The notes beneath the pieces are model-generated. The model saw only the letters and a program-made list of their open reading frames with translations. It searched no databases and was not told the origin of the DNA. Of a stretch of 64,000 nucleotides of DNA, positions 21,885 through 61,605 are shown one piece after another. The stretch's first letter is position 1. Each line of letters opens with the position of its first letter. The stretch is from Rosa chinensis (lineage: Eukaryota; Streptophyta; Magnoliopsida; Rosales; Rosaceae): NCBI RefSeq assembly GCF_002994745.2, contig NC_037092.1, positions 88,264,398 through 88,328,397 of the forward strand. The letters are read 5' to 3'. The position numbers were made by a program, and so were the translations under genes.

Positions 21885-21898
21885 AGTGATATGCACAT
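21885..21898. repeat. LINE target-site duplication, left copy
   Basis: AGTGATATGCACAT, identical to 61592-61605. It stands directly before the T run that is the LINE poly(A) tail on the minus strand. Confidence 0.9.
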
Positions 21899-22347
21899 TT
21901 TTTTTTTTGGTAAGCAAGTTAAGGAAAAATATGCCCCCTAACTCAAAAATTTATTGAATAAAAAAGAAAATTACAGTAGAGATAGAGGGATGATGCCAAA
22001 ATCTTTCTCACCAAAAAATACAAAGCAAAAACAACCCAAATGAAGGCTAATTTACAGCTCAAAATAAGCTCCAAGCATCTTGAATTACTTGATGAGGCAT
22101 CTACTATACTTCCCAGCAATAGAACATAGAACATCAAGTCTTGTGCCTCCATATATCTCATAGTCTAACATGAACGCCCAAATAAGAAATCTCCAAAGCA
22201 TGAGGTTTTTATTGTAGTCCTAAACTGAAACCCACAAAGGCAGCGTATGCATACAAAAACCAACAGTAGGCATCTCATATAATCATGAAGACCATACATT
22301 AATTGAATAGTGAGGCAACGACAAGTGAAGTCATAAAGGTAGCTAAC
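21899..22347 (-). mobile_element. LINE 3' UTR end and poly(A) tail
   Basis: AT-rich terminal part of the LINE, ending on the minus strand in GCTTACCAAAAAAAA. Its continuation resumes at 36629 after the Gypsy insertion. Confidence 0.75.
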
Positions 22348-22854
22348 TGTTAATGTCTAAGATTGAGCGGTAGCCCAAATCATGGTTAACGCTGGTCCGG
22401 TGGGCGGACCGCTACTTATGATGTTCTCAGAGCTTCCGCTACCTGTCAAGTAAAATACAAAGGGCGTCAGAGGGAGACCGCGCTGGGCGGTCTTCTCTTC
22501 TCCGATGCCTAAGTTAGTCAATGTATTTATGTTGACAGAATAACATTAGGTAAGTAGTAAATGCATAATTAATGAGGAGAGTAGTGGACCTTTTATATGT
22601 AGGGAAGAGGCTGATCTCTTTCTTGTTTTCGATGTGGAACTGATATGTTTCAGTTCCCAGCTTCTGATGCTTCAGCGAGGCTACCTTGAAGTGGCGCGTT
22701 AGCGGTGATCTGGGTGTGAGCCGGGGCTTAGGTGATAGCCTGCTTGGCCGTGTTTCCGTAGGTCACACCGTTGGTGCTTGTTATTACCGCTGGCGATAGC
22801 ATGAGTGTGGCTCATTATAGCTAATTATGCTTGGCCAATGCCTATGTAAGTACA
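22348..22854 (-). mobile_element. Gypsy 3' LTR (507 bp)
   Basis: TG...CA repeat paired with 36120-36628. A polypurine-like ACTGGGGACT (minus strand, 22855-22864) abuts its inner edge. Confidence 0.9.
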
Positions 22855-23351
22855 AGTCCCCAGTCAAGGAGGTCAATCTTGGTTAGGGAGTTACCTGGGG
22901 GTTTTGAAGCGTTACTTCTGCTAGTCTTGCATAAGCATAATTAGCGTCAGTACGTTGTCAACCACGGATTTGTTCTGAACAAACACTTTATACCCTCTTG
23001 GGTGGGCCCCTGCTAGGCCCCCCCTAGGGAGTCCCCCACTCCCCGGCTAAGATATACCTCCGTTTGGCCAGCGTATTGTTTGATGAGGGGGATCTGTACT
23101 GAGCAGAGGGTGCTGGGTAGTGAGCCCAATTTTGATACCCAAGTGGCAGGAGTCAACGTGCATGATCAGGGCAGTCGACGGTTGTTTGTTGGTCTTTTTA
23201 CTTGTCCCGGAGGAACGTAGCTTGACAGCAACGCTGCGAGGCGGTCGTCGTTAGAACAAGGCGTTGCCTCGGGAGTCGCTGTTGGCGGACGTCCCTCCGC
23301 TGATGTAAAAAGGTAAGAAGTTTCACGGGGACCTTCTTGCCTGCAACTCAG

Positions 23352-23666
23352 TGTTGCGCTCAGCGGAGACTGATCTATTGCGAGATGAAAGGGAGAAGTC
23401 CCGCTAGCTGTGTTGCGCTTAGCGGAGACTATCTCACTTGCAAGATGAAAGGGAAAAGTCCAGCTAGCGATGTTGCGCTTAGCGGAGGAGACTGTCGCTT
23501 GCAAGATGAAAGGGAGAAGTTCCGCTAGCGATGTTGCGCTTAGCGGAGACTCTCGCTTGCAAGATGAAATGGAGAAGTCCCGCTAGCGGTGTTGAGCTTA
23601 GCGGAGACTGTCTCGCTTGCAAGATGAAAAGGAGAAGCCCTGCTAGCGGTGTTGCATTTAGCGGAG
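23352..23666. repeat. Tandem repeat of about 60 bp in the Gypsy 3' region, first part
   Basis: Units start at 23352, 23411, 23471, 23532, 23590 and 23650 with TGTTGCGCTTAGCGGAGAC and contain CTTGCAAGATGAAAGGGAGA and CCGCTAGCG. The sixth unit is cut by the solo LTR at 23667 and resumes at 26330. Confidence 0.88.
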
Positions 23667-26329
23667 TGACAGGACCCGCCCCGGATTTCACCCCGAAATC
23701 TGAAGTGGCCCTGTGGGGCCCACCTTAGAAGAAATTCTACCAAAAATTTGGCAGAACTTCCCCTAAAAATGGACTACCCAAAACCTGTAAAAAAATATTT
23801 ACACTTCTAAACCATCCATCCATATTCTCCTGGAGCCACCCTGCTCTCCAAATCACAACATCTTCCAATTTACATTACACAATTCCGAACTTAATAACGT
23901 AATTCCACCGTAATCAGAGCAATTCTAAAACGAAAGGCATAACAGAATAAAAAGTAAAAAGGGTAAAGGATCAATAAATCCTATAATGCGGAAGTAGTGA
24001 CAACTATGCCTCAGCTCCATGTACACCCGACCCCAACTAATCTAACCCGCAAACTGGGCATTTGAAACCGAATGGCCCAGGGGAAAGTATTAAAAAACAC
24101 GTTAGTGTGAGTGGACAAAAATAAATAATTAAGATGATTTAAATGAAGCAAACTTGAATAGTCTCCCACTTATTTAAATTTATAAAACTCGATGCATGCA
24201 ACGTTTATAAAACATATTTCTCTAAACTCAAAATCTTGGAAAAACATACCAGCTCCACTGGTTAAGAGAAATCGGACTAGCCCCGCTAGTCAAATAATAA
24301 AAGGATATGGGGAAGAAATATCATCATACGGGTAAAGGAGCCCCTTAGGCTCTACCTACCCTCGACTGCCACTCACACATAGATTGTGTGAGGAGGAAAA
24401 CTAATAACCTCGACTACCACTCACGTGAGGAGGAGAATCTTCAACTGCCACTCACAAACACAAAGTAAGTGAGGAGGAGACACTAACCGAACGACCCGAG
24501 TATGGTGACGAAAAACAATCGAAAACCAGTAAATCCATAAAGCTTCCCCAATATCTCACGAGAAAAATAAGTATATTCCAATGACATGGCCCTGCACGCT
24601 AAAATATTCTTAAAATCATAACAAATAGGCGAGATCAAATTATAAATCGTAACTCAGAAAAAAAAAACTAATCCACAATCATCAATAAGGCATTCCCAAT
24701 GCCAAAACCGAAAGTCGATGAGTAAACAAGAAAAATATCTCCATCGAAATCCCATTTCGAAAATCTTGTAAAAAGCTCAAATCGACGAATAGAAATATAA
24801 TATATAATTCCAGAAATCATATCGGAAAATAATTCGTCGAAAAATCATTATAAATTGTAAATTCAAATTCGAGCGTAGAAAACTCTCGTTCTAAAATCAT
24901 GATGGAAAATCCTATCAATAATCCAAATATATATTCCAAAGCCAAATAATATCTGAAACTAAAAATAATATGATCGACAAAATATTATGATAATTAAATA
25001 AAGCATTAATTCAAGAAACAACGCATGCATCAACATTTAAAACAAAAGTCCACTCACAGTACTATATAGGCGACCACGCATACGAGTTTCCTTTGTCGAG
25101 TAGTAATTCGGTATAGTGCCCTGTACACAATTATATTCCGTGAATAACAATTCGGTAATTAAATACGATTCCTAAAATCAATCCTCTTAAGCGAACATCT
25201 CCATTTCCTTCTCCGATTCAACCCAAACTTTACCACTAACACCATTCCATTAATTTACAAGTTCTACAGCAGATTCAAGAGAAATCCGACGGTCGGATCC
25301 TCATAAATCGATAACCGAAATTCTATATTTCCAGGAATTTATAATCGATTCAAAACTTTCCCAATCTTCACTAAACTTCATATATAAGCTCTACAACATT
25401 TATAGGATTTAATAGGCTAAAAATTGAATTTAAAAAAACTGCCCTACGCGCCTCCACGCGCGACCTACAGTGGCGGCGCGTGGGGTTCACAAGCCACCGG
25501 CAACCACCTCCGATGGCCACCAAAATTTGGCAGCACCACGTACTCAACAAACCCAACATTTTTCTCAACTACAACAAGTTCCAATTTTACCTTGAAGAGC
25601 TCCAATTTGGCCGGTGAAAATTTTCCAGAAATTTCAAAACCCTAGAATCGGGTTTTTGCTTGATTCTTCCCCTACAAAGCAAATCGATGCTTGAAGCTTG
25701 AGGGGAAATGTCAAATGGCTCGAGGAGCTCCTATTGGACTTGGTTTGGTGGTCGGAGATGGCCGGAATTGGAAGAATCGACGGAAAACCTCCAACTTCTA
25801 CAGTGAGGGTTTTTGCTTCAATTTGGGGTTTTCTGGCCAAATCGCCGTAACCCACGGTCACTAGTGTATAGAGGAGGAAGAGGCGCTGCTAGAATGGCCG
25901 GTTGCACACCGGTTGGTGGCCGGACGGCGGCAAATCGAACTAAAGAAGAAGAAGCCGGCGGAAACGAGGGAGAGAGAGATCGGGGGAGAGGAGAGAGAAA
26001 AGTTATTGTGGGTTTCCCAAAATGGAAACCTACAGTGGTAACTTTCCATATATATATATATATATACCCAATTTACCATGAACAGTAACTTCCGTATTTC
26101 ACTTATAACTTTCACATACGAACTCCGATTTTTACGTACTACATATGCACCCGCTCGGTTTAACGTTCTCTACAACTTTCATGAAAAACATTTTCTCTAA
26201 TTTTGACTCGAATAAAAAGTCAACTTTTAGGGCCACTAAAAGTATCGAAACATAGTAAAAAGTGAAAGTAATTGTCGTTTACCGTCCATATAATTAGTAA
26301 ACTGATAAATTTAGGTTCGGGATGTAACA
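23667..26329. mobile_element. Solo LTR of a second LTR-retrotransposon family, copy A (2663 bp)
   Basis: Starts TGACAGGACCCG, ends GGGATGTAACA, and is flanked by CGGAG (23662-23666) and CAGAG (26330-26334), a 5-bp target duplication with one later change. It inserted into a Gypsy tandem-repeat unit. It is homologous end to end to 54191-57041. No gag or pol. It carries a minisatellite at about 24355-24480 and a (TA)n tract at 26049-26066. TG...CA ends and 5-bp duplications mark it as a solo LTR from LTR-LTR recombination; the parent lineage is not visible. Confidence 0.82.
24355..24480. repeat. Palindrome-rich minisatellite in solo LTR A
   Basis: About three to four imperfect units of CGACTGCCACTCAC ... 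GTGAGGAGGA. CCACTCAC and GTGAGGAG within each unit can pair as a short hairpin. The same array, longer, is at 54930-55152. Confidence 0.7.
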
Positions 26330-26450
26330 CAGAGACTGTCTCGCTTGGAAGATGAAAGGGAGAAGCCCCGCTAGTGGTGGTTGCGCTTAGAGAAGACTGT
26401 CGCTTGCAAGCCCGCTAGCTGTGTTGCTCTTAACGGAGACTATCTCGCCG
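26330..26450. repeat. Gypsy tandem repeat, continuation after the solo LTR
   Basis: The remainder of the interrupted unit and one to two more degenerate units (CTTGGAAGATGAAAGGGAGA, then GTTGCGCTTAGAG). Confidence 0.8.
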
Positions 26451-27199
26451 ATTGGCATACCTGCCCTTTGACGATTTCTTCGGAGAGATGCTTCGTCTGA
26501 CAGCGCCTGACACGTGGCTATCATGCATTGGGTTAGCGTGTGGGATAACGTCTCCTCAGCACGCCCGTATCTTCGTCATTAATGCGAGTAATTCGAAGAG
26601 TAAGTGCGATCGTGGGGCACGTGTATGGCTGTCGTTTGATGTCGTTTTTCAGCGAACAGCTTGGATTTGTTTGATGTTGACATAAAAGAGAGGGAAACTC
26701 AGGGGGTTTTGACATTTTGTGGACTTCAAAACTTAACTCATCGTCTTCAAGCCTTGTTCTCTAAGAGCCGAGGAGTGCCTTCTGTAAATTGAGTGAGAGC
26801 GTTCTTCTATGAAGGAAAGAGATTCTTGGAAGTGAAGATATACATCCCAAGTGTACCGAATCTCCCATATTTGCAGGTTGGTGATCTGAGCCCTCTGTTT
26901 ATTTGTTTGCTCGTTGTTTCTGTCAATTGAGATTTTTTGCTTTTTGGTGCCACTCCAATGTGTGTCTGAGGGTCTGAAATGGTTTTTGGGGGTGGGGTTA
27001 GCTGTTTGAGGCAGGGAGTTGGGGTTGATGGATTTTCTAGATGGTCGAATCTCAGTTTTGGATGCATGTATACATGTGTTCTTGTTTTTGTTGTTTCTAG
27101 GTTTTCTGGGTAATTGTTCTTGGTGTTCTTGACTAAAATCTGACATAGGGATAGTTTAGATCGTTTTGTAACTGACTGACCTAGGTTTTAGGGTTTGTC
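26451..27199 (+). promoter_or_regulatory. Likely promoter and leader region of the antisense ORF
   Basis: Unique sequence between the tandem repeats and the start of the plus-strand ORF. It holds an ACATAAAAGAGAGGG stretch near 26680 and an acceptor-like tttgcag near 26876. A promoter is plausible because the ORF is opposite to gag-pol, but nothing proves it. Confidence 0.3.
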
Positions 27200-29607
27200 A
27201 TGGCTAGCGTCATAGAGATCTCGAGCAGTGAGGATTCTAGGTCTGACGTGTCGCTGAACGTTGCGGATATAATTTTTATTGATTCCTTGCATCCGTCTGC
27301 TCCTGCAGGAACCGCTAGACATCAAACCTTTACAAACTATACCCTGGGATGTAGCAATAGCTAGAGGTGGGCGTCCAGAGAGTTCGACAGCAAGGGAGGG
27401 AACTGCTGCCCGCCAGCGGCGAGAGGAGAGGTTGGCTAGCAATAGCGCCGCTAGTGGTTTTGCTGATGGGGGAGAGGCTGGCGGGGAGGAGATAGAGTCA
27501 GCTTGGGTCATTCATGATGGTGCTCTAGTTAATGAAGCGGGAGGTCCGATGACTTCGCATGCCGTGAGTCGGCTAAAGCGAGTGTTTCGCCTTCCTAGCG
27601 TAGTGAAGTTATGTCCGCCAACGAGGGATGAGAGAGCGTCTATTTTGCCAGCGGGGCACACCACTGTCCACGAGGCCATCTTCCGCCAAGGAGTCACTCT
27701 CTCGCTGCTGCCAAACCTTCAAATCTTGGTTTGCGAGTTCGACCTAACATTTGGGCAGATTTGCCCCAACATGTGGCGGTTGTTGATGGCATTGAACTCG
27801 TTATGGCATCTGTCTGGCTGAGAAGGTCCGATTGTGGCGGAGGTACTACATTTCTATGAACTGGTCTATGTGAGGCGCCAAGGATACAGCGGACAGGTGA
27901 ACCTCACTCGCTGCCAAGGGGCGCCTAAGTTGATCGAAAATTTGAAAGATTCGATGTCTCCCTGGCGGTCGACCTTCTATGTTGCGACCAGGGGGTGGGA
28001 GTATGATGCCGGGGTAAATAAAGGGGTGCCGACGTTTAGGATTAAGTCGGAGTTTCAACCAATCCGAGGTTGTGTCCAGTCCCCGCTGAACGAATTTGGC
28101 GGTTTTGCCTGCGTGATATGCCCATTGTTTTTATTTTTTCTAATCATCCCTTCTCTGTGCAGCGGGTTTGCGCTTTAATTTGACGCGCAAGGAACAGTGC
28201 CGTGTAGAGAGGATAAAAGGGTGCTGGCAGAACCGGAACCTTCTTGACCTGCGCCTGCTCACAGGTTGGGAGTTGTTGGTCGACTTAGGATTGACTCGCG
28301 CCATTGGTAAGTATCTTCCGCCGACCAGTGTGTTTTTAAATTTTTTTGTTTTAACTTGTGTTGTGTCTGCCTGTTCAGATTCTGTTCCTGGTAACAAAGC
28401 GAGTCGTGACGTGTTTGACAAGGCCATGGACTGCGCGGAACTACAGAATTTCCTAGAGGGCATGTATGTCATTAGGCTGGCAGCTCAGCAAACCGTCGTT
28501 GATCCACAGACACTGGCAGTGAGTCAGTCAGAGACTCCGGTGGTGATGCCAATACCTCATCATTCACACCTCGCTCCTGCTGGCCAGACCGTGGTATCGG
28601 TCCAGGGTTGAGCTGAGCAAGGGGCTGCTGGCGGGAGCCATGTTGCTGCCGTCCCTGTGAAGACCAAGGAGACGGTTCCTGCCTAGCGGCGAGGACCCCA
28701 TATTGAGAAAACGGTGCCGAGGAAAGAGCCCGTTAGATTTGCGGGGCTGGAGCCTCAAGAGCTGCCTTGGCCTGTCGGCGCGGGTGCAGCCCAAGGTGGG
28801 GGTCTTCGGAAGAGGCGTCAGAATGACATCGACCAAAGTGAAGATGTCGTCGACACCATACTGATCGGGGCACGCCAGCAGAGGTAGAAGAAAGCCAGGT
28901 CGACCCCACGACCAGTGACTGTTGCTGCCGCCAAGGAGGGGCCAAGTGGAGGGTTGGACTTTTTCACCGCCTACGCGGAGTTCTTGACTGATCCAGAGCG
29001 AGAGTTCCTCTTTCATCTCTGCGAGCGGCTCGAGTTCGGTGGGTCGAATGGGACCATTCGCTTGACGGCTATTCAGCAGTCGCCGTTTAGTTCGGCATTT
29101 GTACATCTGTCCGTTGGGCTGCATGAGCTGTTCCTGGAGGCGTCGAACCAGCCTCAGGTTGAGCGGCAACTGAGGGAGGAGATTGAAGGTCTCCAGCGGG
29201 AATTGAGGGAGACAGAGGATAAGCTGGCAGAGACCGAACGACGCCTAACCAAGGCAGAGTGCAACCTGGCAGATGTCCGCGGCAAGTTGAGCGTCGCCAT
29301 TAACCAGGATGTCGAGCGGAACGACCGAGTGTCCCGGTTGGAGCAAGATACCCTGCTGCAGGAGCAACTGGTGGCAAAGACTAAGCGGGCCGATATCCTC
29401 CAACGGGAGTTTGCCGCCAAGTCTGCGGAGCTAAAGAAATTGGAGGTAGTGGTTGCCCGACTGGACGCTGAGAGGAGCCGCGCAGAGGCTGCTGCCGAGG
29501 AGTCGTTTAAGCAGTCCCCGATGTACAAGCAAGCCCTGACGGAGGAGGCGAAGGCTGGTGCTGCCGCTAATTTGGACCTGTTGACCAAGAAGGGCGCCAT
29601 TGATTAG
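27200..29607 (+). pseudogene. Tat-type antisense ORF (extra ORF opposite to gag-pol), spliced and partly broken
   Basis: Starts MASVIEISSSEDSRSDVSL at 27200. A frame change near 27300 leads into a globular part: VFRLPSVVKLCPPTRDERAS, a segment with FDLTFGQICPNMWRLLMALN, then VLHFYELVYVRRQGYS and FYVATRGWEYDAGV. An intron with clean borders spans 28307-28378 (ends ...LTRAIG, resumes DSVPGNKASRDVFDKA). The 3' part (28915-29607) has EREFLFHLCERLEFGG and then a long coiled coil (about residues 75-200 of that frame). Antisense ORFs of this layout between integrase and 3' LTR are described for Tat elements; their function is unknown. Stops and frame changes (27820, 28609) suggest it is no longer fully coding, unless more introns exist. 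Confidence 0.75.
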
Positions 29608-30387
29608 GTTAAAGCGTCTGGGCTGTCGGGTCAGCAGGAACCTTCTACAAGAGGCGTGGCTCCCGCTCAAACTGAGGGTGTTCGCTCATGCAGTGGCGAG
29701 AGTAGTGAGCTTCCGGCGGATGACTCTCAGCGGACTCCACCTCCAACTCAATCCTAAATTTCTCGCACTGACTTCATGGCTGCCCACACCCGAGCGGATG
29801 GTACCATGGTGATGCCGAGCCCTACCGCTGGTGGGTCTGATCAGACGAGACGCCTGACCGGGCAACAACCACCGTTGGATGGTGAGGATGTCACCGCTGC
29901 TCCCAACAATCCTTGAAGATCATCTTGGCTCTAGCTCATCTGTGCTATTTTTGTAATGCCGCTAAGGCTCCTTTTTTTTTTTTTGTAACCTGACAATATT
30001 TTTGGGCGGGGAGTCCCGACCCTAGATATATGGAGTATTGCTATTTGCTTCTAAAATTTTGCAAGTGTGGGATTGTTTCTAATGATTGTGTTGTTTGCAT
30101 GTTGATATACCGCTAGAGGTTTGACTTGTGCTTTTGCCTAATCAATGAAACATTAAAGGAATTACAATTGTTCTGTGCACAATGTAGCGGACGTGGTCCG
30201 CTGAGTGTTGTTGGCATTGCCAATTAACTTATGCGTGGAGAACAATGGTTTGAATAATTCCTCGTTTCATTGATAGCTGAGAGATCAGCGTTTACAAAAG
30301 AGGGGTTGTACCCGTTGGGTAGCTTCCCTTAGCTAAACATCGAACAAAAATTTAGCTAAGTCAAGATGCTCTTGGGTAGCGGTAGGA
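29608..30387. other. Region between antisense ORF and integrase
   Basis: Likely 3' UTR of the antisense ORF, followed by a spacer with a T run near 29970. No coding function recognised. Confidence 0.45.
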
Positions 30388-31942
30388 CTATTTGTAATAA
30401 TACCGAAAGTGTTCGGTATTCCAAGGGTGGGTCATTATGACTCCATCCTTGTCCATTAAGTAGAAAGTGTCGGGGCCGATGACCTCAACTATTTTGTATG
30501 GTCCTTCCCAAGTTGGGCAGAGTGCCTTTGGCGATAGAATAACTTCCTTCATAACCCAGTTCCCCAGTTGGAGGTTCCGGGCTTTGACTCTGGCGTTGTA
30601 GAAATGTGATACCCACTGTTTGGTTTGCAAGTTGCGCAAGTGGGCCTTGTAGAGTCTTTCCTCGAGGAGATCTTTGTCTAGGTTAATGCCTTCGCTGTTG
30701 TTCTCGGGGCAATAGCCCTCAACCCTAGCGGTAGGTTGGGTGAGCTCAATGGGTAGGACGGCCTCAGTTCCAAAAATCATACAGAATGGTGTTTCACCGG
30801 TAACAGATGTTGGGGTAGTTCTGATGGCCCACAGGACTTCCGGGAATTTCTCCGCCCATAAACCCTTGGCGTCGTCAAGCTTCTTTTTTAGCAGCTTCTT
30901 GATTATCTTGTTTACTGCTTCGAATTGGCTGTTGGTTTGGGGGTGAGCGACAGATGCAAAGCTCAATTTGGTGCCCAGGTTAGCGGTGAAAGATATGAGC
31001 TCTCTGTTGTTGAACTGTGTGGGGAATGTCGTAGCTGCAATAGATGTTCTTCCAGAGGAAATGAGTTACCTTGGTGGTGGTTATTGCTGTTAGCGGCTCC
31101 GCCTCTATCCATTTGCTGTTGTTGTCGATCGCGACAATGATGTACTTGAACTGTCCCTTGGCGGTTGGGAATTTTCCAAGTAAGTCAAGGCCCCACATGG
31201 AGTGAATCCAAGGGCCAACGATGATCGACAGGGGTTCCGCCGGGGCATGGGGGAGGTCAGCGTACTGTTGACATTTGTGGCAAGATCTGGAAACTTTCTT
31301 GGCGTCGTCGCCGAGTGTAGGCCAGAAGTAGCCTTGTCGCATTGTGTGATTGGCCAGAGATCTGGCGCTGGAGTGGTTTCCACATTCCCCAGCTTGTATT
31401 ATTGCTAGAACGACCCTTCCCTCCTCTGGGGTCAGGCACCGGAGGTTAGGATGGGTGAATCCTTGGCGGTAAAGCTTGCCATTCTGAATATTATAGAGGG
31501 TTGCTCTCCGCTTGAGTTGTCGTGCTCCGACCTTGTCTGCTGGCAGTGTCCCATTGAGCTTGTACTCAATGATTTCATCCATCCAGCTGGGGTTGACTTC
31601 AATGTTGAAAATCTCCACTAGGGTTTTGGTGGTGCTTGGCTTGTCAAGGCATTCTACCCTTGTGTCCGCTGGACTTTGGTGTGGTTGAGCAGTTGCTAGT
31701 CTTGCCAGTGAATCAGCCTTGGCGTTCATTTCCCTAGGGATTTGTGTGATGGTATGAAATTTGAATTTTCTGAGTAGCGTCTTGACGTACCCCAAGTATG
31801 CTGCTAATTGTTGGTCTTTGGCCTGGAAACTGTCATTGACTTGGTTAACGACTAGCTGGGAGTCGCTGAATATGTTGATGCTATCAGCACCGGAGTTAAT
31901 GGCGAGGAGCAAGCCTGCAATGAGCGCTTCATACTCTGCCAT
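30388..31942 (-). pseudogene. Gypsy second RNase H and integrase
   Basis: The frame at 31942-30980 starts within the archaeal-type RNase H (TNNMAEYEALIAGL, FSDSQLVVNQV, AKADSLARLA). It continues to the integrase zinc-binding domain (CHKCQQYADLPHAP) and the first part of the integrase core (WGLDLLGKF, with the first catalytic Asp). The reading frame breaks near 30980. The core and C-terminal part resume at 30966-30388 (SFASVAHPQTNSQFEAVN, with the catalytic Glu; then the GNWVMK...PTWEGPYKIVEV chromatin-facing domain). The short block that normally carries the second catalytic Asp is missing at the break, which removes activity. Confidence 0.88.
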
Positions 31943-32644
31943 GTTGTTTGTGGCTGTGAAATTGAACTTTAACGCGTATTCCCCCTGGCCCCCTGGCCCT
32001 GTCAGGATAACTTCGGCGCCGCAGGTGGAGCCGTCTACGTGGAGGTTCCAATCCTACTGTTGCTGGGGCGCTGGTCCCTCAGCGGTTATCATTTCTATGT
32101 TGGCTTCTTCTGCCCTTAGGTTATGTTCATCCTGACGCTTGGTGAGCTCTACTATGAAATCTGCCACCGCCTGGCCCTTCATGGCGGTCCTTGGCTTGTA
32201 GTCAATGTCGAACTCGCTGAGCTCGATGGCCCGCTTGCTGAGGCGCCCGGAGTGCTCAGGGTTTTGCATTACTTGCTTCAGCGGTTGGTTTGTTAAGACT
32301 TGAATTGTGTGGGCCTGTAAGTATTGGCGGAGGCGTCTAGCAGCGACAATGAGTGCGAGAACGAGCTACTCAAGGGGGGTATATCTTGTCTCCGTCCCGT
32401 TCATGCCACTGCCGGCGTAGAATACTGGGAGCTCTTCCTGGCCTTCTTGTCGTACTATGATGCAGCTTACCGCTGATGGGGATACTGCTAGGTAGATGTA
32501 CAGTGTCTCACCCTATACAAGAATGGAAAGAAATGGGACTGCTGCCAAATACTCTTTCAAGCTCTAGAACGCCGCCTCACAGTCTGGGGTCCAGTTAATT
32601 TCTTTCTTGTGGGTCCTCTTCAGAACTTTGAAAACTGGGTGGCA
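31943..32644 (-). pseudogene. Gypsy first RNase H, connection and start of second RNase H
   Basis: Pieces of the Ty3-type RNase H and its end (SKRAIELSEFDIDYKPRTAM, then VADFIVEL) at 32269-32054. After an in-frame TAG near 32054 comes WNLHVDGSTCGAEVIL, the start of the archaeal-type RNase H. Several stops lie at 32270-32644. Confidence 0.75.
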
Positions 32645-37221: not shown

Positions 37222-37260
<39 letters not shown>

Positions 37261-50409: not shown

Positions 50410-50529
50410 TTACCCCAGAAAGAAAACATATTGCCCTATCAAATTGTCCACATTTCCACTTCGTTGTAGCAAAACTAATTGTGGAATAATTACAACTGCC
50501 TCCAAGTATATTGAAAATGCCCAGAAGAC
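50410..50529 (-). pseudogene. ERD2: ERD2 (KDEL receptor) exon captured by the CACTA
   Basis: On the minus strand this exon reads VFWAFSIYLEAVVIIPQLVL and then LQRSGNVDNLIGQYVFFLG, ending at a good donor (G|GTAAGT). It matches the segment of plant ERD2 spanning transmembrane helices near the middle of the protein. ERD2 is the Golgi receptor that returns HDEL-tagged proteins to the ER. Frame and splice donor are intact here. The other ERD2 exons are absent, so this is a captured fragment, not a gene. A decayed copy is at 14873-14990. Confidence 0.85.
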
Positions 50530-51019: not shown

Positions 51020-51500
51020 TTCCACTAGCTAGATCAATGACTGTTCTCGAGCTTCTGCCAATTCAAGATAGATATGTTTTAGTTTATATTTTAAGAATCC
51101 AGTGAAGTTCAGGGTTCCAATTATAAGAAGGAAATAGTACCTTTTCCAAGAACAATTATATGGATGAGAGACAAATTGACAGAAAAAAATAACAAAGGAG
51201 TGAGTCACAGAGAAAAGATTATACCTTACAAGCGTCACCTTACCTGGATCTCCTTCCACAATTCGAGCATTAGTCCTCACCTGCTTCCAAAAGGAACATA
51301 CAAAAATTAAACATAAAGAATACCCTACAAAAGAAATTAAGCATGTTATTTGTATAGTACTTCACCAGCAGCAAATATGTACTTTTTTCTAGTAGGACAG
51401 TACTCACCAAGCAATCTAATTAATGACCAATAGAGAGAGGCCCGCTCAGACAAAATGCAATGTAGTAGAATGAACTACCAACTTCCTGCAAGCAAATAAT
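51020..51500 (-). pseudogene. Further exon-like fragments in the CACTA, source unknown
   Basis: On the minus strand, three short open pieces have splice-like borders. One is near 51490-51410 (after ttgcag, EVGSSFYYIAFCLSGPL, ending before gtgagt). One is near 51281-51246 (VRTNARIVEGDP, between gcttccaaaag-type acceptor and gtaagg). One is near 51053-51013 (ARTVIDLASGTH, then gtatgt). I do not recognise the source gene or genes. They may come from a locus different from ERD2. Confidence 0.35.
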
Positions 51501-52359
51501 AAAGGTATTCAGAAAAACACATTCTAAGGAACATTTAAGTACGTCCACCAGTAAAAGAGTACTTTCACTTATATGGTCATTGAAGGCAACAAAATATCAT
51601 TCACATTCACACAAACAGCCATCAACTTCGCAATCAGGTAAGTTATGAAGTGATTAATTTCCAGTGTACATAAGATTTCTTATTTTCATATTCACATTAC
51701 ATACAATCAAATATATTTTGTCACACAAATAACCATAGCTGACTGTGAATAAGAGTTCTGATTTTCAGATAAACAGCATATTTGATAGTGCAAATAAAAA
51801 ATAGTAAACAAATTAAACCCAGTCATTTTCCAATTCCAGGTATCAATAGTGAAAAACCTGAAGGTTCATGAACCCTTGAAACTTCTTTACAAACAAACAA
51901 AACCTCTTGTATGAGCTGGAGCTACGCAAAACCTACAGATTTTATTTTTCATTCCAGCAATTAAGACAACAACATAAACCAAATGGCTTGTTTCAATTGA
52001 ACCACAATTCATGTGAAACAACAATATCCCAAAATGGCTTCGATTCAAACACAATATCCCAAACAGTCAATTTCATAAACATAATAAAAAAGAAACAAAA
52101 ATTTCAAAAGACCCAGTCAAGAAACCCAAACAATTTCAACATGTATCAATCAATTCAGAAATCCAACAAAGAAAGAAGAAAAAAATAAAAAGGAAGAACT
52201 TAGTTTGATTGAGATTGTACGTTTGAAGATAGGTGGAACTGCGGTGGTGGTATGCTCGTCAGGACTGGCGGTCATTGCGGTGGTGGTCGACTGGCGGTCA
52301 CTGCGGTGTGAGAGAGAGCTGAGAGTACGATTTATTAGACTGAGACAGAGAGGGAGAGG

Positions 52360-52360
<1 letters not shown>

Positions 52361-52414
<54 letters not shown>
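52361..52414. repeat. (GA)n microsatellite
   Basis: About 27 GA units. On the minus strand this is (CT)n lying upstream of the exon-like pieces, like a plant 5' UTR, so it may be the captured leader of a source gene. Confidence 0.85.
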
Positions 52415-52416
<2 letters not shown>

Positions 52417-52598
52417 TCTCAGAGAGAGAAAGAGGATGTCTTAAGGTCGAAGGTTGAGGCTAGGGCGCGCTAAGGACTAAGGGCCGATAAGATTGAAAGT
52501 GATTTTCAAAGAGAGAGGCGGGAGCTCTGGTTTTTTGGTCAAATGGAGAGGGAAAGAGTTTAATTTTTTATTTTTGTCCAAAGTGTTAAAAATCTAAC

Positions 52599-52806
52599 TG
52601 CAGAAAATGATATTTCGATATGTTGATGTTTACAAATGTACACATATATAGCAGTGAGATACTACTGGTACAATGCAACCATTAAACTCTATTTTCAGCT
52701 ATAATCAAAATTGATATGCAATTATAGCATAATCAAAATAGCCTATGTATTCAATGGAGGAGAATCATATGGCTGGAGTTTAGGAGAAGATTTAGCTTCT
52801 CTAACA
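52599..52806 (-). mobile_element. Nested Copia 3' LTR
   Basis: Partner of 59559-59766, about eight differences in 208 bp. Confidence 0.9.
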
Positions 52807-54190
52807 TCCCTCCTCAAACTTGGCGGTTCTGGACAAACAAGTTTGCCAGAAAAGAGAAGATGACGAGACTTGTGAAGCGGTTTGGTGAGTAAATCAGCAG
52901 GCTGATCAATGGAAGGAATGAAGCAGACACGGTGACTGCCAAGAGCAACCTTTTCACGAACATAATGATAGTCCAGTTCAATGTGTTTGGTGCGAGCATG
53001 AGACACAGGATTAGACGCCATATAGGTAGCACTTAGATTATCACAATGCAAGAAGATGGGGAACTGAATGTTAGCATGGAGTTGATACAGCAGATAGCCC
53101 AACCAAGTAGTCTCTGCGTAGGCATGAGCAAGAGAACGACATTCCGACTCGGCACTCGATCGAGCAATAGTAGGCTGCTTCTTGGAGCACCAAGAGATCA
53201 AATTGGAGCCAAGATACACAAGATAACCGGATGTGGAACGACGGGAGTCAGGGCAGCCCGCCCAATCCGCATCAGAATAAGCAGAAATATGAACCGGTTG
53301 CTTCTGAGGCGCAAAAAATAAGCCATCACCCAAGGTGCCTTTGACATAGCGGAGGATGCCTTTCACGACAACCAGATGAGGGTCACAAGGCTTACTCATA
53401 AACTGGGAAACCGAGTTGACCGCAAAAGCGATATCCGGACGGGTAATTGTGAGATATTGTAAGGCACCCATAAGTGCACGAAACTCTGTGGGATTGGCAA
53501 GTAAAGCACCTTGAGTGGTAGTGAGGTTATGTTTGCCAGACATAGGGGTATTGACTGGCTTACTGAGCAACAAATCATGCTTGGAAAGAAGATCATAAGC
53601 ATATTTCATTTGATTAATATGCAGGCCAGGGGAGACGATATGAACTTGCAAACCAAGAAAGTAGTGCAGGGACCCCAAGTCTTTAATATCAAAACAGCGA
53701 CCAAGGGCATCAAAGAAGCTCTGGAGAAGACCATCATTACTGCCCATAACCACAATATCGTCAACATACAGCAAGAAATGAATAGTGTCTTGACCGTGGT
53801 GAAAGATGAACAAAGAGGAATCTGCCAAACTGACAACAGAAAAAAGCTCATTCTCTGGAACCATGCCCGAGGAGCCTGTTTAAGGCTATAAAGTGCCTTG
53901 TGGAGCTTACAAACATGAGTTGGCCTAGTTTGATCAATAAAACCAGGAGGTTGAGTCATGTATACTTCCTCCGTAAGAAAACCATGGAGAAAAGCATTCT
54001 TGACATCTAATTGGCGAAGAGACCAACCACGAGACACAACAAGACTAAGAACAGTACGGGTTGTAGCAGGTTTGATTACAGGGCCAAAAGTTTCTTGAAA
54101 ATCAATACCTTGCTATTGATGGAAGTCCTTAGCCACAAGACGTGCTTTAAAGCGGTCGACTGAGCCATCCGGATTGCGCTTCACCCTAAG
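52807..54190 (-). pseudogene. Nested Copia RT (second part) and RNase H
   Basis: From the solo LTR edge: RT block [20 protein letters not shown] and [16 protein letters not shown] frameshift near 53870 follows, then [14 protein letters not shown] (YVDD intact) and GILRYVKGTLGDGLFF. RNase H has SAYSDADWAGCPDSRRSTSG, SSAESECRSLAHA and HCDNLSATYMASNPVSHART, ending near 52743. The RNase H catalytic residues are present. Confidence 0.9.
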
Positions 54191-57041
54191 TGACAGGACC
54201 CGCCCTGGATTTCACCTTGAAATCCGAAGTGACCCTGCGGGGCCCACCTTAGAAGAAATTCTACCAAAAATTTGGCGGAACTTCCCCTAAAATGGGCTAC
54301 CCAAACCTGTAGAAAACATTTACACTTCTCAATCAATTCCTCCTTATGCTCCTGGAGCCGCCCTGCTCCCCAAATCAACATCAGTCTCCAATTCACAAAA
54401 CACACATCTCAACTCGAATATCATAAATCCCATAGGTAATCAGAGCAATTCTAACAGAAAGGTATAAGAGGAAAACCTAATTCAACGGCAGATGCGGAAG
54501 CCATGCTGTTGACTATGCCTCAACTCCGTGTACGCCCGACCTCAACCAATTCGCCTGCAAACTGGGCATTTGAAACCGAAGGGCCCAGGGGAAAGTACAT
54601 AAAATACGTTAGCATGAGTGGACAAAAATAAACAATTTTTAAACCAAATGGATTTTATACTTTCCCACATTTATTTCCTTAAAAACTCTCGATGCATGCA
54701 ACGATTTAGAAAACAAATCACGAGAAGCTCCGCTCAAGAAAAACCGACTAGCCCCGCTAGTCACAAACAACTGAGAGGAAAGATCGAAACTCCGATACTC
54801 AACAGGATAAGACCAGCCCCGCTGGTTACACGGAAATCAGACTAGGCCCCGCTAGTCGAGAAATGATAGGATATGGGGAAGAGATATCACCATACGGGAA
54901 ATGGAGCCTCCCAGGCTCTACCTACCCTCAACTGCCACTCACACATAGATTGTGCGAGGAGGAGAACTAATAACCTCAACTTCCACTCACACATAGATTG
55001 TGCGAGGAGGAGACCAAATAACCTCGACTGCCACCCACGTGAGGAGGAGAATAAATCACCTCTACTGCCACTCACCAACACAAAGTAGGTGAGGAGGAGA
55101 ACAAGCTACCTCAACTGCCACTCACCAACACAAAGTCAGTGAGGAGGAGACCTAATCACATAACCCGCGTATGGTGAGGAAAAATCATCGAAAACCAGTA
55201 AATCCATGTAGCTTCCCCACATTTCTCACGAGATAAAACCATGTATTCAACGACGTGACCCCGCACGCCAAGATTACTCTCAATCTCAAAATGGATAAGT
55301 GAGAAATAGGAATAAATCGACGGCATGTCCCACACGCCCAAATTATTCTCATATCCGTAACCGAAACCGGAAATTAGTATAAGCAAATCCCATTTCCAAA
55401 AAATCTCTCAAAATCTCCAAGAAACCAACCAAATCCAAAATCCTTAATTAGGCATTCCCGATGCCAAAATCGAAAGTCAATAAACAATTGAGAATATCCA
55501 ACTCCATCGAAAACTCATCTCGAAAATCTTCCAAGAACTTAACTTGGTGATTAGGGATATACTTAATTCCGGAAAATTACCTCGGAAATAAGCAATTTGT
55601 CAAATAATATTATAAATCATAATCAACCTTTGAAACTCATTATCAAGAGCAAATCCACGAGATAAACCGAGATCGAATTTCCGAAAATCAAATCATTTGC
55701 TCAATAAGTAATATGATTAAAACTAGAGCATTATTTAAGAAAATAATTGCATGCATCAATATTTAAAAATAAAAGTCCACTCACAGTACTATTCTGACGA
55801 TCACGCATTCGTGTTCCGTCATCGAGCAATAGCTCGGTACGTCCTCCTGTACACAATTATATTCCGTGAATAATTCTTCAATAATTTAATACAATTCCTA
55901 AAATCAATTCCTCATAATTTCACCTCCCAATTCTCCTCGGATTTAGCCCAAATTATACCATTAATACCAATTCGTTAATTTAAAGGTTCCAAGGCAGAAC
56001 CGAGAGATATCTGACGGTCGGATTCTCGTAATTCGATAATCGAAACCCTAAACTCCAAAATTCATAAATAATTCCAAGTTTCTCCAAAAATTACCAAACT
56101 TCACATACAAGCTCTACGCAATTTATAGGATTTAAAGGACTAAAAACCGGAATTAAAACACCGCCTTACGCGCCTTCACGCGCCACCTACAGTGGCGGCG
56201 CGTGGGGCTCACGCGCCGGTGGCCACCACCTCCAATGGTCACCAAATTTCAGCAGCGCCACCTACTCATCAGACCCAACATTTTTCTCAACCACAACACA
56301 AACCAATTTTACCTTTAAGAACTCCAATTCGGCCTGTGAAAAATTTCCAGAAAAATCCCAAACCCTAGGATCGGGCTTTCCTTGATTCTCCTTCCATGCT
56401 ACAAATCGCGGCTCAAGGCTAGGGGGGAAATGATCCTTGGCAAAAACCCCGCCTTCGACGCTTGTTTGGTGGCCGGAAACGGCCAGAATCTCCGGAAATC
56501 GACGAAACCTCCGTTTAGCTACAGTGGACTTCTTGGCTCAAATCCGAGCTCCTCCGGCCGAGCCACCGCAAAACACCACCCCAGGCATGACAAGGAGGAG
56601 GAGGCGAGCTTGCCGATGCCCGGATTCCGTCATGGGGTGGCCGGAAACGAAAGAATTCGCCGGTGGAAGAAAACGGCAGAAGGGGAAGGAAAATCGGGGA
56701 AGAGGAGAAAGAAAATTCAGTAGATTTCCGAAAATGGAAATCTACCACAGTAACTCAGCTATTTATAGAAAGTTACCGTAAACAGTGACCATAAACAGTA
56801 ACTTTAATCTTTCGCTTATAACTTTCGCGTACGAACTCCGATTTTAGCGTACCACATATGCACGCGCTCGATTTAACGTCCTCTACAACTTTCATGAAGG
56901 AAGTTTTCTCAAATTTTGGCCCAATCAAAAAGTCAACTTTTAGGGCCACTAAAATACCGAATTAGGGTAAAAAGTGAAAGTAGTTGTCGTTTACCGTCCA
57001 AATGACTAGTAAACGGGTAAGTGAAGATATGGGATGTTACA
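54191..57041. mobile_element. Solo LTR of the second family, copy B (2851 bp)
   Basis: TGACAGGACCCG...GGGATGTTACA with a perfect 5-bp duplication CTAAG (54186-54190, 57042-57046). Homologous along its length to 23667-26329. Carries the palindromic minisatellite at 54930-55152. It splits the RT frame of the nested Copia exactly; that frame resumes in phase on the other side if the insert and one CTAAG are disregarded. Confidence 0.88.
54930..55152. repeat. Palindrome-rich minisatellite in solo LTR B
   Basis: Five imperfect units of about 45 bp with CCACTCACACATAGATTGTG-type or CCACTCACCAACACAAAGT-type cores closed by GTGAGGAGGAGA. Each unit can form a small hairpin (CCACTCAC against GTGAGGAG). 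Confidence 0.75.
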
Positions 57042-58447
57042 CTAAGAACCCATTTGCAGCCAACTATGTTCTGAGCCGGAGAGAAGGGAACCAGAGACCA
57101 AGTGTTATTCTTCATGAGAGCATTGATTTCTTCTGTCATGGCAGCACGCCACTCTGCTTTCTTTGAAGCTTGAGAATAACAGGTGGGTTCGACAAAGTCA
57201 ACCAAGGTTAGGAGAGCTCGAGGAATGGGGTACCTGATTGTGCCGTCAGTTCGAATTCTGGGTTGGTGAGTACTATCCCGGAGTCGTGTGACCATGGGGT
57301 GGTGTGGAGGAGCTGGGCTCATAACAGGCGCTGGAGGAGGCGGGCTCACAGCAGGCGCTGGAGGAGGTGGGCTCGCAGCAGGCACCGGAGGTGGTGGGCT
57401 CAGTTCAAGCGCCGGAGGAGAAGTCATAGATGGCGACAGAACCGGAGATAAAGGGTCAGCTACAGATGCGGCTGCTGATGGTAACGGATCCCGAGCTGGA
57501 GGGTCAGCTGCAGAGTAAAGAGATGAAGGTTCTAAAAGCGAAGTGGGATGTGAAGCAGCGTCGGGTAGAGGAGCAATCGGCGCTATGGTCGGGATAGGAG
57601 GAGAGATCGGCGTTGTGGTCGGAAATGGAGGAGAGATCAGCACTGTGGCAGGCGCAGTCGTTGGGCGACGACGGTAGGCTGCAGACGGCGACGGAACTGG
57701 TGCAGGGATGAGAGAAGGCCCCTCGTTGACGGCGATGGGCTGGTAATGAGCGACGGGGGTAGGCCGGGGACGGCGGTGGTAGGTGATGATGGGGGCAAGC
57801 GATGTAGGGATTGATGGAGGCGTGGTTGGGTCTGATGATGGTGATGCCGAGATAGAATCCTGAAGGGAGGAATTGGGCTGAAAGCTTGGGCTGCCAGGCA
57901 ATTGGGCCTCTGGAGCAACATTTAGGTTTGGGCTAGACAAAGAAGTGAGCTCCAATGTGCTTGAGGCCTGAGTAAGCTGGTCCTGTAAACTTTTATAAGG
58001 AAAATGTGATTCATTAAATATTACGTGCCTAGAGATATAGACACGACCAGTGCGGGGATCAAGACAACGATAACCTTTATGGTGAGGGATGTAACCTAGA
58101 AAAACACACTCAAGACTACGACTAGAGAGTTTATTAGAGACATAAGGACTGAGATAAGGGAAACAAGAACAACCAAAGACTCGAAGAGAGGAATAAGAAG
58201 GTGGACTCCCATAAAGACGAGTATGTGGTGTATCCCAGTTAAGAACAGGTGTAGGAAGAATATTAATGAGGTAAACGGATGTTAACATGGCTTCAACCCA
58301 AAGATGATGTGGAGCTCCTGAAGTAAGAAGGAGGGTGTGAGCCATGGTGGCAATGTGGCGATGTTTATGCTCGGCAAGACCATTTTGTTGTGGTGTGTGA
58401 GGACAAGAAAATCTCTGTTGAATGCCCAAATTCAGTCCCATTGTCAC
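57042..58447 (-). pseudogene. Nested Copia integrase C-terminus, proline-rich linker and RT start
   Basis: A 504-residue frame begins within the integrase core (FSCPHTPQQNGLAEHKHRHI, carrying the catalytic Glu), then the typical YGSPPSYSSLRVFGCSCFPY and PHHKGYRCLDPRTGRVYIS. A long Pro/Ser/Thr/Ala-rich linker follows (about residues 170-400, with repeated SPPPPAPA). RT starts at AEWRAAMTEEINALMKNNTW and GCKWVL, where the solo LTR cuts in. The last part of that frame (below 57042) is solo-LTR sequence. Confidence 0.88.
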
Positions 58448-59501
58448 TTTGGAGAAATTGAGGTGATTGTTGAAAAATATTGCGTATCATAGCAATGAAG
58501 GTTTGAAAATGGGTGAGAACTTCATTTTTGCGACGCATTGGATAAATCCAAGTGTACCGAGAAAATTCATCGGTAAAAAGGACATAATATTTGAATCCGC
58601 TAACGGAAAGGGTAGAAGAGGACCAAACATCACTATGAAGAATTTGAAAAGGAAAAGATGCGCATTCTTGATTATATGGAAAACGCAATTGATGAGATTT
58701 GCTAAGTGCACAATCTCTGCAAAAAGAGCAAAAAGATAACTTAGAACCAATGCTAGACCCTAAACGAGCTAAGACATTTGAAGAGGGGTGACCCAAACGG
58801 TTGTGCCAGATGGCGGAGTGAGTGGAGGCAAGTGCATAGGGAGTAGTGGACACGCTGGATAGATTAAGAGGATAGAGACCATCTTTACAAGGGCCTTGAA
58901 ACAAGAGACGACCAGTGAGTAAACAATAAATTTGATAGAAATCAGGAGCAAAGAGGAAAAACACACGATTATCTTTAGTGAACTGTGCAACCGACAATAG
59001 ATTTTTACTAATGGAAGGAATGCGGAAAACATCAGATAAAGAGAATTGAGAGGAGCCTAAGGACAAAGGAAGAGTACCGGTATGAGAAATGGGCATGGAA
59101 TCCCCATTACCCATATACACGTAGTGTGGACCACCATAAGGTTGAGAATTGTTGAGAGGCATAGCAGTCATATGGTGAGTGGCACCCGTATCAGGACACC
59201 AATTGGGATCAGCAACAAAATGAGCTCCAGCAAAGGGTGTAGCTGTGGATGTGCCAGGAAATTGAGGAGGACAGTGGTGCAGCGAATGAGAACTTGTGTA
59301 GCAATTGGGACACCAATTGGGAGGTGAAGAACGCACAGCCCAAGCAGGAGGAGTGAAAGGCCCAAAAGGCTGAGCTAGCCGTTGTTGCGCAATGGTGGAA
59401 GGCGATAGAGACAGAAATGGACGACCACCATAGGAGGAGTTTGGTGAAGGATTAGAGTTGGTGGCAGCCATGGAAGAGGAGGGGGTGGTGGGGGAAGACA
59501 A
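58448..59501 (-). pseudogene. Nested Copia gag remnant, protease and first half of integrase
   Basis: Opens at 59501 only about 40 bp from the primer-binding site. The gag capsid domain is absent; after a Ser/Pro-rich stretch there is just a CCHC knuckle (CPNCYTSSHSLHHC). Then comes the protease with WCPDTGATHHM (active-site DTGA intact), the pre-integrase zinc site (WHNRLGHPS ... CSFCRDCAL) and integrase core blocks ILHSDVWSS and FLQSDNGTEF. A frameshift just after the last block ends the frame at 58365. Confidence 0.88.
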
Positions 59502-59558
59502 GGGCAGATAACAGATGAAAGAGGATCAATATGGGGAGAACCTAAACTACTGATACCA

Positions 59559-59766
59559 TGTAGAAAATGATATTTTGATATGTTGATGTTTACAAATGTA
59601 CACATATATAGCAGTGAGATACTGCTGTTACAATGCAACCATTAAACTCTATTTTCAGCTATAATCAAAACTGATATGCAATTATAGCAGAATCAAAACA
59701 GCCTATGTATTCAATGGAGGAGAATCATATGGCTGGAGTTTAGGAGAAGATTTAGTTTCTCTAACA
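59559..59766 (-). mobile_element. Nested Copia 5' LTR
   Basis: Partner of 52599-52806; outer flank CTAAC equals 52594-52598. Confidence 0.9.
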
Positions 59767-59771
59767 CTAAC

Positions 59772-60255
59772 CCTAGGTAAAACTCGGCTTGTATCAGGAG
59801 AAAGGAAAAAAAAACACCTAAATTCAGACAACATCAGTTAGGGTGCATTGTCTAAAGATAATGTGACAACAGACAAATAAAAACAGTTGTGTGAAACAAG
59901 CAAATCAGACAACATCTTTTCGCAAGCATTGACTTAAAGGTTATTGCACAACAGACAACTAATAACAGTTATGTGATTGAAAACAATCAGACAACATCAA
60001 AAATCAACCATTGTCTGAATAAACGTTGGACAACATTGAAATAATAACTATTGTCTGAATTGATCCATTCAGACAACATCATAATATCAACCATTGTCTG
60101 AAAAGTAATTGCACAAGAGCCAAGTAATAACTGTCGTTGGATTCAAAACTTCAGACGATAGAAATATTTTTGCTGTCGTTTGATTATTTCAGACGACAGT
60201 TAAAATGTTTGCTGTCCTCTGATATATGTTGTCTGATTGAATTTTTGGCCTAGTG
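59772..60255. repeat. CACTA right subterminal and terminal repeats
   Basis: About a dozen CAGACAACA/TTGTCTGA motifs in both orientations, ending in TTTTTGGCCTAGTG at 60255. Confidence 0.85.
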
Positions 60256-60258
60256 ACA

Positions 60259-61472
60259 AGTCTTGTGGTCTCACTGGACTCATTCTTCACAATGTCAGCT
60301 AAGCGTTCAATATGCTCATTAGCAGCTTTTTCAAAAGCTTCACTAACCAAAGTAGCATACGGGTTGTCATTAACTAGACCCGTTACAACCTGAGATGTAC
60401 TAATAACCATATCGGCTTGAATCAAAGGTTCCTGATGAACAACAACATCAGTAGCAATACTTTGGATAGCAGCCTGCTTGGCCTCAACCAACGAAGCAAC
60501 AATTTGTTCATCAATAACCTTATTCACCTCTACTGCATCAATTTGAACCACTGAAAGATCAGCTCCTTCATTGGAAGAACGAGGGAATCACTCTATACTC
60601 TTGATACACAACTTTGCATTTATTCTGATCATGAAGGGAGCGTGTCTTAGGCTCTTGCTTTTGCAATAGTCTGCAGCGACCCACAGAGTGACCAATGATC
60701 TCACAATTGGAACACTTATCTGGCAGATTTTCATACCAAATCTCCACTGGAAAATAAAAGTTCTCACGTTCAACCATAATCAAAAAAGGGAAATCAGTAG
60801 CCAAATCACATCATCTAACACACGAGCATAGTAACCATATTGACTTTCCTTTGTCTCCCGATCAAGTTTTGGAGGAGTACCCACACCCCGGGCTATCTCC
60901 ATAAGGAGGTAAGGATGCCAATAGTCCTGGCTTAAACCCGAGATTTGAATCCAAACCTATGCATGAGTTTGGGGCATGGCATCACTAGGATTGAAGTCAG
61001 GCTTCCATTCAGAGAGACGAAATATGCCACTTGCAAGAGTGCAAGTAGCCCCTCCCCAGATGCGACGCATGTCCTCTTCAGTGCTAAAGTGAATATCAAA
61101 GTAACCTTTCCCCAAAGGTACCAGACGCCATGGCCCTGAGGCTTTCCATAAATTGTAGAGAGCAGCTTTGAAATCAACTGTTTTCAAAGGAACAAAACCA
61201 TTTTTCAAAAGTAATCTCCCAATGAGGTTTGTGCGAAAATATTTCAGTTGCTCTTGATAAATTCCCTCATTGATCTTGACATAGATCTTGTCCCCACGCA
61301 CAACTAGGGCTGTCAGTTGATTGAGGTTGAAGGAAGATTCAACGAAGTCAGAAATGATGGAGGGAAACATTCTAACTTTGAGAGGAGGCTTAGGAGCAGA
61401 GGCCTTTAGGACGCTGTGGTATAAACCCCACGGGAAAGTGTTTGCCCTAGGTCCACCGAAAGGATTCTGCAT
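60259..61472 (-). pseudogene. LINE ORF1, N-terminal and central part
   Basis: Starts MQNPFGGPRANTFPWGLYHS at 61472. Residues about 35-165 are a DUF4283-type RNA-binding domain (GRLLLKNGFVPLKTVDFKAA, LWKASGPWRLVPLGKGYFDI, IFRLSEWKPDFNPSDA). After frame breaks near 60955 and 60810, a CCHC knuckle CSNCEIIGHSVGRC occurs at about 60710-60670, then an acidic helical stretch. The CACTA inserts near 60256. Plant LINE ORF1 binds the element RNA. Confidence 0.85.
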
Positions 61473-61591
61473 CTCAGGCTTACAGCAACACCATCAAAAC
61501 AAGGCGGTGAAACGGAGGAGAACAGAGACTAGCGCTGCCACCACAAACCCTAGAGGATTTCAGTCGCAACGGTGACAAAATCCACAAGTCC
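61473..61591 (-). mobile_element. LINE 5' leader
   Basis: From the first base after the target duplication to the ORF1 start; about 119 bp, which suggests that the insertion is not 5'-truncated or only slightly so. Confidence 0.65.
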
Positions 61592-61605
61592 AGTGATATG
61601 CACAT
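61592..61605. repeat. LINE target-site duplication, right copy
   Basis: AGTGATATGCACAT, identical to 21885-21898. Confidence 0.9.

Follow-up and report, generated by a model that had tools for sequence, protein, structure and literature searches.

Structure of the locus

We analysed a window of 64,000 nucleotides from Rosa chinensis (assembly GCF_002994745.2, contig NC_037092.1, positions 88,264,398 to 88,328,397 of the forward strand). Within this window, one minus-strand long interspersed nuclear element (LINE) almost certainly spans positions 21885 to 61605, where it is split into six pieces by other transposable elements. Five elements lie directly in the LINE: a Gypsy element, a hAT-like element, a terminal-repeat retrotransposon in miniature (TRIM), a Copia element (Copia-1) and a CACTA element. 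Three lie deeper, namely a solo-LTR-like element (LTR, long terminal repeat) in the Gypsy element, a second Copia element (Copia-2) in the CACTA element and a further solo-LTR-like element in Copia-2. The coordinates of all features are given in Table 1.

Table 1. Pieces of the LINE and the elements inserted in it (window positions; ORF, open reading frame; RT, reverse transcriptase; UTR, untranslated region; TIR, terminal inverted repeat; K, distance between LTRs)
Feature	Position	Strand	Remarks
LINE target-site duplication, poly(A)-side copy	21885-21898		exact 14-bp match to 61592-61605
LINE target-site duplication, 5'-side copy	61592-61605		exact 14-bp match to 21885-21898
LINE piece 1: 5' leader (about 119 nt) and most of ORF1	60259-61591	-	DUF4283, zf-CCHC_4
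LINE piece 2: ORF1 tail, ORF2 start, endonuclease, RT part 1	46714-48836	-	RVT_1 positions 7-80
LINE piece 3: RT part 2, ends with Copia-1 duplication copy CAATC	39919-40677	-	RVT_1 positions 83-205
LINE piece 4: ORF2 C-terminal part, ends with TRIM duplication copy	37950-39559	-	zf-RVT, RNase H RVT_3
LINE piece 5: 3' UTR, ends with hAT-like duplication copy CATCAAGT	36634-36692	-	placed by duplications
LINE piece 6: 3' UTR and poly(A), ends with Gypsy duplication copy CTAAC	21899-22347	-	placed by T-run and duplications
Gypsy, putatively Tat-like by RNase H/integrase order	22348-36628	-	LTRs about 22348-22854 and 36120-36628, K = 0.062, duplication CTAAC
Extra coding-like region of Gypsy	27188-29935	+	between integrase and 3' LTR, opposite strand to pol; bounds by eye
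Solo-LTR-like element in Gypsy	23667-26329		TG..CA, flanks CGGAG/CAGAG
hAT-like, non-autonomous	36693-37941		inverted ends TAGGCCTGGGC / TAGGGCTGGGC, duplication CATCAAGT
TRIM	39560-39913	-	two identical 121-bp LTRs (39560-39680, 39793-39913), duplication GAAAC
Copia-1	40678-46708	+	LTRs 40678-40855 and 46531-46708 (98.3%), duplication CAATC
CACTA, apparently non-autonomous	48837-60255		TIR CACTAGGCCAA.., 29 bp at 93%, duplication ACA
Copia-2 in CACTA	52599-59766	-	LTRs 208 bp at 96%, duplication CTAAC
Solo-LTR-like element in Copia-2	54191-57041		TG..CA, exact duplication CTAAG

Ends of the LINE

The LINE is bounded by a 14-bp duplication, AGTGATATGCACAT, both copies of which are exact. The left copy is adjoined by a run of ten T on the plus strand (21899-21908), which corresponds to the poly(A) of a minus-strand LINE, and the right copy is situated upstream of ORF1, whose start codon (base 120 of piece 1) is about 120 bp away. 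Complex 14-mers that recur at least 20 kb apart number 193 within the window. When those common to the two solo-LTR-like elements were excluded, 17 remained, compared to 2 to 15 in 20 first-order Markov simulations. Recurrence of 14-mers across the whole window is therefore weak evidence by itself and was set aside as proof of the outer duplication; instead, its position relative to the T-run and ORF1 was used. Eight T-runs of at least 8 bases lie on the plus strand. When their left flanks were compared with the 300 bp beside the ORF1 start, seven matched over 5 bases at most, and only the one at 21898 matched over 14.

Continuity of the LINE across the insertions

When one duplication copy is kept per site, the coordinates give a combined length of 6,333 bp for the six pieces. 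For the Pfam and protein mapping the pieces were kept separate and never joined. Piece 1 matched DUF4283 (E 2.1e-18) and, below the cut-off, zf-CCHC_4 (E 4.2e-5); DUF4283 together with a zinc knuckle is typical of ORF1 in plant L1 LINEs. RVT_1 was divided at the Copia-1 insertion, with both parts above the cut-off (Table 1), and piece 4 carried RVT_3 (E 1.6e-12, above the cut-off) and zf-RVT (E 0.0035, below it). The endonuclease of the LINE gave a weak Pfam match of its own (Exo_endo_phos, E 0.083, below the cut-off). Its place ahead of the RT follows from the relatives P0002, P0003 and P0010, which carry PF03372 as well as an RT and align across the region in order.

When the part of ORF2 on piece 2 was used as a protein query, 54 relatives were obtained, the closest of which is a Rosa chinensis protein (81% identity over 37% of the query). 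The best of them are plant proteins with an RT, several also with an endonuclease and zf-RVT. Each of the 54 was placed by tblastn on pieces 1 to 4, taken one at a time, and the order was judged by midpoints. P0001 and P0050 match one piece; the others match at least two, and all of these are in order (52/52). Of 52 relatives at the Copia-1 junction, 49 show zero net residue change, as do 26 of 39 at the TRIM junction. The alignments of P0008 and P0009 come within one codon of where piece 4 ends, which places the hAT-like element at the ORF2 end.

The search with ORF1 yielded 45 relatives, the closest again from Rosa chinensis (84% identity over 55% of the query). Counting two-piece matches at E <= 0.01, 20 of the 45 match both piece 1 and piece 2, and the order is right in all 20. 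Seventeen of these match the first 322 bases of piece 2, where the ORF1 tail is expected, all in one frame, in the phase expected from the frame in which P0180 and others match piece 1. The remaining three match piece 2 only deep in ORF2 (P0209 and P0216) or at 351-470 and 616-789 (P0215). In the closest relative, P0175, 170 unaligned residues face 173 residues' worth of DNA at the CACTA junction. This junction falls in the fast-changing ORF1 tail, and since the length of the tail varies among relatives, the residue count was rejected as a test of it.

A preliminary description of this DNA had claimed that one LINE accounts for about 40 kb, that it measures about 6.33 kb after subtraction of the insertions with its domains in the right order, and that a perfect 14-bp duplication at its ends adjoins the poly(A) on one side and the LINE leader on the other. 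All of this is borne out by the exact copies and their surroundings, the summed length, the Pfam matches and the colinear order of the ORF2 relatives. The same description had named beforehand a failure of the pieces to align colinearly to one LINE family as the outcome that would speak against it; in our comparison, which was run with proteins, the pieces were colinear.

By its domains, poly(A) and target duplication, the base element is assigned to the plant L1-type LINEs. It has decayed. Compared to P0003, the frame of ORF2 changes three times in piece 2 and once in piece 4, and pieces 2, 3 and 4 all contain stops; compared to P0175, ORF1 contains one stop and one frame change. The LINE is dead even apart from the insertions.

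The inserted elements

The ends of the Gypsy element, the TRIM and both Copia elements were taken from the edges of the LTR alignments, to within a base. For the hAT-like and CACTA elements the ends were set by eye, and the duplication was visible when this was done. The flanks of all five direct insertions are exact (Table 1), as the preliminary description had stated, and together with the deeper elements exact duplications were found for the LINE and seven of the eight inserted elements. For random pairs of flanks, chance matches were obtained in 246 of 200000 cases at 5 bp, 8 of 200000 at 8 bp and 3588 of 200000 at 3 bp. At the last of these rates ACA alone is weak, and the CACTA element rests on its 29-bp TIR. 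The occurrence of CTAAC at both the Gypsy element and Copia-2 is taken as chance. The earlier count of five insertions thus stands for the direct ones, each with its own duplication, but was incomplete, as the three deeper elements had been missed. The LINE contains at least eight elements, and more may lie inside the larger ones.

The Gypsy element carries a gag domain and, in one frame, RVT_3, the integrase zinc-binding domain and then rve (below the cut-off). Its extra coding-like region contains open frames at 27273-27821, 28144-28611 and 28888-29607; no Pfam family above the cut-off was found in these three frames. Tandem repeats of about 60 bp are also present in the Gypsy element (23351-23666 and 26332-26448), separated by the solo-LTR-like element. 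Two frames were scanned in each of the two solo-LTR-like elements, with no Pfam family above the cut-off.

The CACTA element has CACTA termini in inverted repeats and a 3-bp duplication. No open frame of at least 150 aa was found in its own sequence, and no Pfam family above the cut-off in 7 of the 14 longest frames of at least 60 aa listed for its left part. Copia-2, which lies within it, shows along the minus strand gag_pre-integrs, rve, SH3 and then RVT_2, and so has the integrase ahead of the RT, as is the order in Copia elements. In the left flank of the LINE, 14655-15051 and 16316-16605 show an inverted 73% match to the CACTA interior. The GTCGTCTG motifs found with this match resemble those near the CACTA ends, and a related CACTA element is possibly present there.

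The element at 36693-37941 has an 8-bp duplication and short TIRs, its two ends being alike at 10 of 11 positions. A longer TIR was not found by blastn, nor was an open frame of at least 150 aa, and the three scanned of its nine frames of at least 60 aa gave no Pfam family above the cut-off. We name it hAT-like only. The TRIM, 354 bp in total, has short identical direct terminal repeats and a 5-bp duplication; its minus orientation is presumed from a primer-site-like motif. A diverged relative of the TRIM (75%) lies in opposite orientation in the left flank, at 21199-21415. In Copia-1 the gag frame is open, with a copia-type gag match below the Pfam cut-off. Beyond gag no frame of at least 150 aa was found, and six post-gag frames of 70-125 aa gave no Pfam family above the cut-off, with one match to SH3_retrovirus at E 0.05.

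Relative order and age of the insertions

Nesting fixes two sequences of events. In the first, the LINE received the CACTA element, the CACTA element received Copia-2 and Copia-2 received its solo-LTR-like element; with four members, LINE included, this is the deepest chain. In the second, the LINE received the Gypsy element, which in turn received its solo-LTR-like element. Kimura two-parameter distances between the LTRs are 0.062 for the Gypsy element, 0.040 for Copia-2, 0.017 for Copia-1 and 0, over 121 bp, for the TRIM. In the alignment that gave these distances, the LTRs of the TRIM and Copia-2 had one-base end offsets (two end gaps); the identities, 100% and 96%, agree with those of the alignment used to set the ends. 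If 7e-9 to 1.3e-8 substitutions per site and year are assumed, the age of the Gypsy element would be about 2.4 to 4.4 million years, and the LINE would be at least as old. Nesting order and LTR ages are not in conflict.

Origin of the locus

We regard it as nearly certain that the locus consists of one minus-strand LINE with five independent direct insertions and three elements nested deeper, all of which arose by ordinary transposition. A full-length or nearly full-length plant L1-type LINE would have inserted once, in minus orientation, and made the 14-bp duplication. Duplication, poly(A) and domain order are observed, and they suggest entry by target-primed reverse transcription of such a copy. 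The LINE would then have decayed. Five elements would have entered it independently, each creating its own duplication: the CACTA element in ORF1, Copia-1 and the TRIM in ORF2, the hAT-like element at the ORF2 end and the Gypsy element in the 3' UTR. Three later elements would have followed, one solo-LTR-like element into the Gypsy element, Copia-2 into the CACTA element and the other solo-LTR-like element into Copia-2. As a unit the locus probably has no function and would represent a layered record of transposition in unconstrained DNA.

Several observations weigh against this interpretation. The L1 endonuclease site is TTTT/AA, and the target of the LINE on the primer strand, GCACAT/GTTG, is not T-rich. 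However, a T-rich site is a preference and not a rule, so the target is no bar to L1-type membership. P0022, P0030 and P0042 fall 31 to 93 residues short at the Copia-1 junction. The TRIM junction has 13 exceptions, of which P0053 is off by one residue and 12 are short by at least 25. In all of these except P0053 the alignment begins or ends at least 93 nt from the junction, so that they are no close test of it. The CACTA junction is supported less tightly, because P0176, P0178 and P0185 fall short there by about 32 to 45 residues; what fits is only the order, the phase of the reading frame and, in the closest relative, the spacing. Pieces 5 and 6 (508 bp of 3' UTR) gave no coding match and rest on the duplications and the T-run. 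In addition, the flanks of the solo-LTR-like element in the Gypsy element differ by one mismatch.

The preliminary description had gone further and called the LINE a landing pad for almost every major plant transposon class. A genuine mixed-class landing pad would mean that the sequence or chromatin of this LINE family draws Class I and Class II insertions beyond what age and length account for. The LINE took five direct insertions over 6.33 kb, whereas the inserted elements themselves, with about 33.3 kb of sequence, took three. This difference might be read in favour of a landing pad, but the LINE is the oldest element by nesting and hence had the longest exposure. Its age alone can explain the number of insertions. 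Insertion clustering was considered as support and rejected: the five positions along the 6.3 kb fit a uniform distribution (Kolmogorov-Smirnov p = 0.49, although five points give little power), and the closest two insertions, 59 bp apart, are not exceptional (p = 0.17). A survey of nested elements with TE-nester reported 1491 nested pairs across 12 plant genomes and described the nesting of LTR elements as non-random, 3' UTRs and nucleosome-occupied sites being preferred (PMC6911290). Two of the five direct insertions lie at or in the 3' UTR of the LINE, and the non-random nesting reported in the survey leaves room for some target preference; according to the same survey, nesting increases with the number of LTR elements per genome. 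We consider a landing pad improbable, and a preference is not shown by these data. The wording about transposon classes was also too broad. The classes found are Gypsy, Copia, TRIM, CACTA and hAT-like, and none of the eight elements is a Mutator, Harbinger, Helitron, Mariner or short interspersed nuclear element (SINE), though no search was aimed at further classes.

Alternatively, two or more LINE copies of the same family could lie side by side or have been joined by rearrangement, with the outer 14-bp repeat being due to chance. Chance 14-mers at least 20 kb apart do occur in the simulations (2 to 15 in each of 20). However, none of the six pieces has a match elsewhere in the window (blastn, E 1e-3), the pieces abut to the residue at two insertions, and the outer repeat is placed at the T-run and upstream of ORF1, which makes this explanation very improbable. 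An assembly error that joined unrelated repeats, conceivable in a region so rich in repeats, is the least credible of all, as neither exact duplications nor residue-level continuity at junctions are expected from misjoins.

Comparison with known systems

Nested transposon clusters have been known from loci such as the maize adh1 region, and LTR elements of plants are commonly nested. The clusters described in the TE-nester survey (PMC6911290) and the rose locus are alike in that younger elements lie inside older ones; the survey describes LTR elements in LTR elements, whereas the rose locus has a LINE as its base and DNA transposons among the inserts. In the Rosa chinensis genome, class I elements were reported to make up 35.1%, LINE and SINE 5.0% and class II elements 11.7% (PMC6786968). 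With such shares a mixed nest is to be expected, and mixed-class nests would not represent a new kind.

The base element resembles the plant L1 LINEs with archaeal-type RNase H described for Ta11 (PMC5348765). Shared features are DUF4283 and a zinc knuckle in ORF1, an ORF2 with endonuclease, RT, zf-RVT and RVT_3 RNase H, the poly(A) and the target duplication. Unlike the Ta11-type L1 as described there, the rose copy is dead, with stops, frame changes and five insertions. The Gypsy element can be likened to the abundant Tat-like family reported for Rosa chinensis (PMC6786968) and to the Tat RNase H described in PMC10508981, since it has an RVT_3-type RNase H ahead of the integrase and, like the rose family, a further coding-like region after pol. 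In the rose family the extra ORF was reported to contain a class II transposase domain (PMC6786968), whereas the three frames scanned here lack any Pfam match above the cut-off.

The locus is thus a very clear example of ordinary plant nesting and reveals no new mechanism. It provides a clean transposon stratigraphy, with one base element, at least eight later ones, a relative order that is largely fixed and one inexact duplication. Nested-repeat annotation software could be tested on it, and its elements could be used as presence/absence markers across roses.

Flanking sequences

To the right of the LINE, 61816-63427 contains a second LINE-like trace, with a T-run at 61816 and a minus-strand match to an RNase H-like protein at about 63230-63427. 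A target duplication was looked for and not found: no 8-mer or longer word is shared between the left flank of this trace and 63381-64000. To the left, a receptor-like protein gene with leucine-rich repeats (LRRs) lies at 3573-5864 (open frame 3576-5864, minus strand, protein P0055) and is closely similar to Rosa receptor-like protein 2. A DNA match (69-81%) to the region of this gene is found at 9856-11757, about 7.7 kb away. Two direct repeats, 1-429 and 8553-8981, are 98.8% identical and stand on either side of the LRR gene; they may be LTRs or the result of a duplication. A GCTCTGATACCATG motif at 167, within the first of these repeats, also occurs in the TRIM. Finally, adjacent minus-strand frames at 18156-20272 match Retrotran_gag_2, a Copia-type gag, and, below the cut-off, a zinc knuckle.

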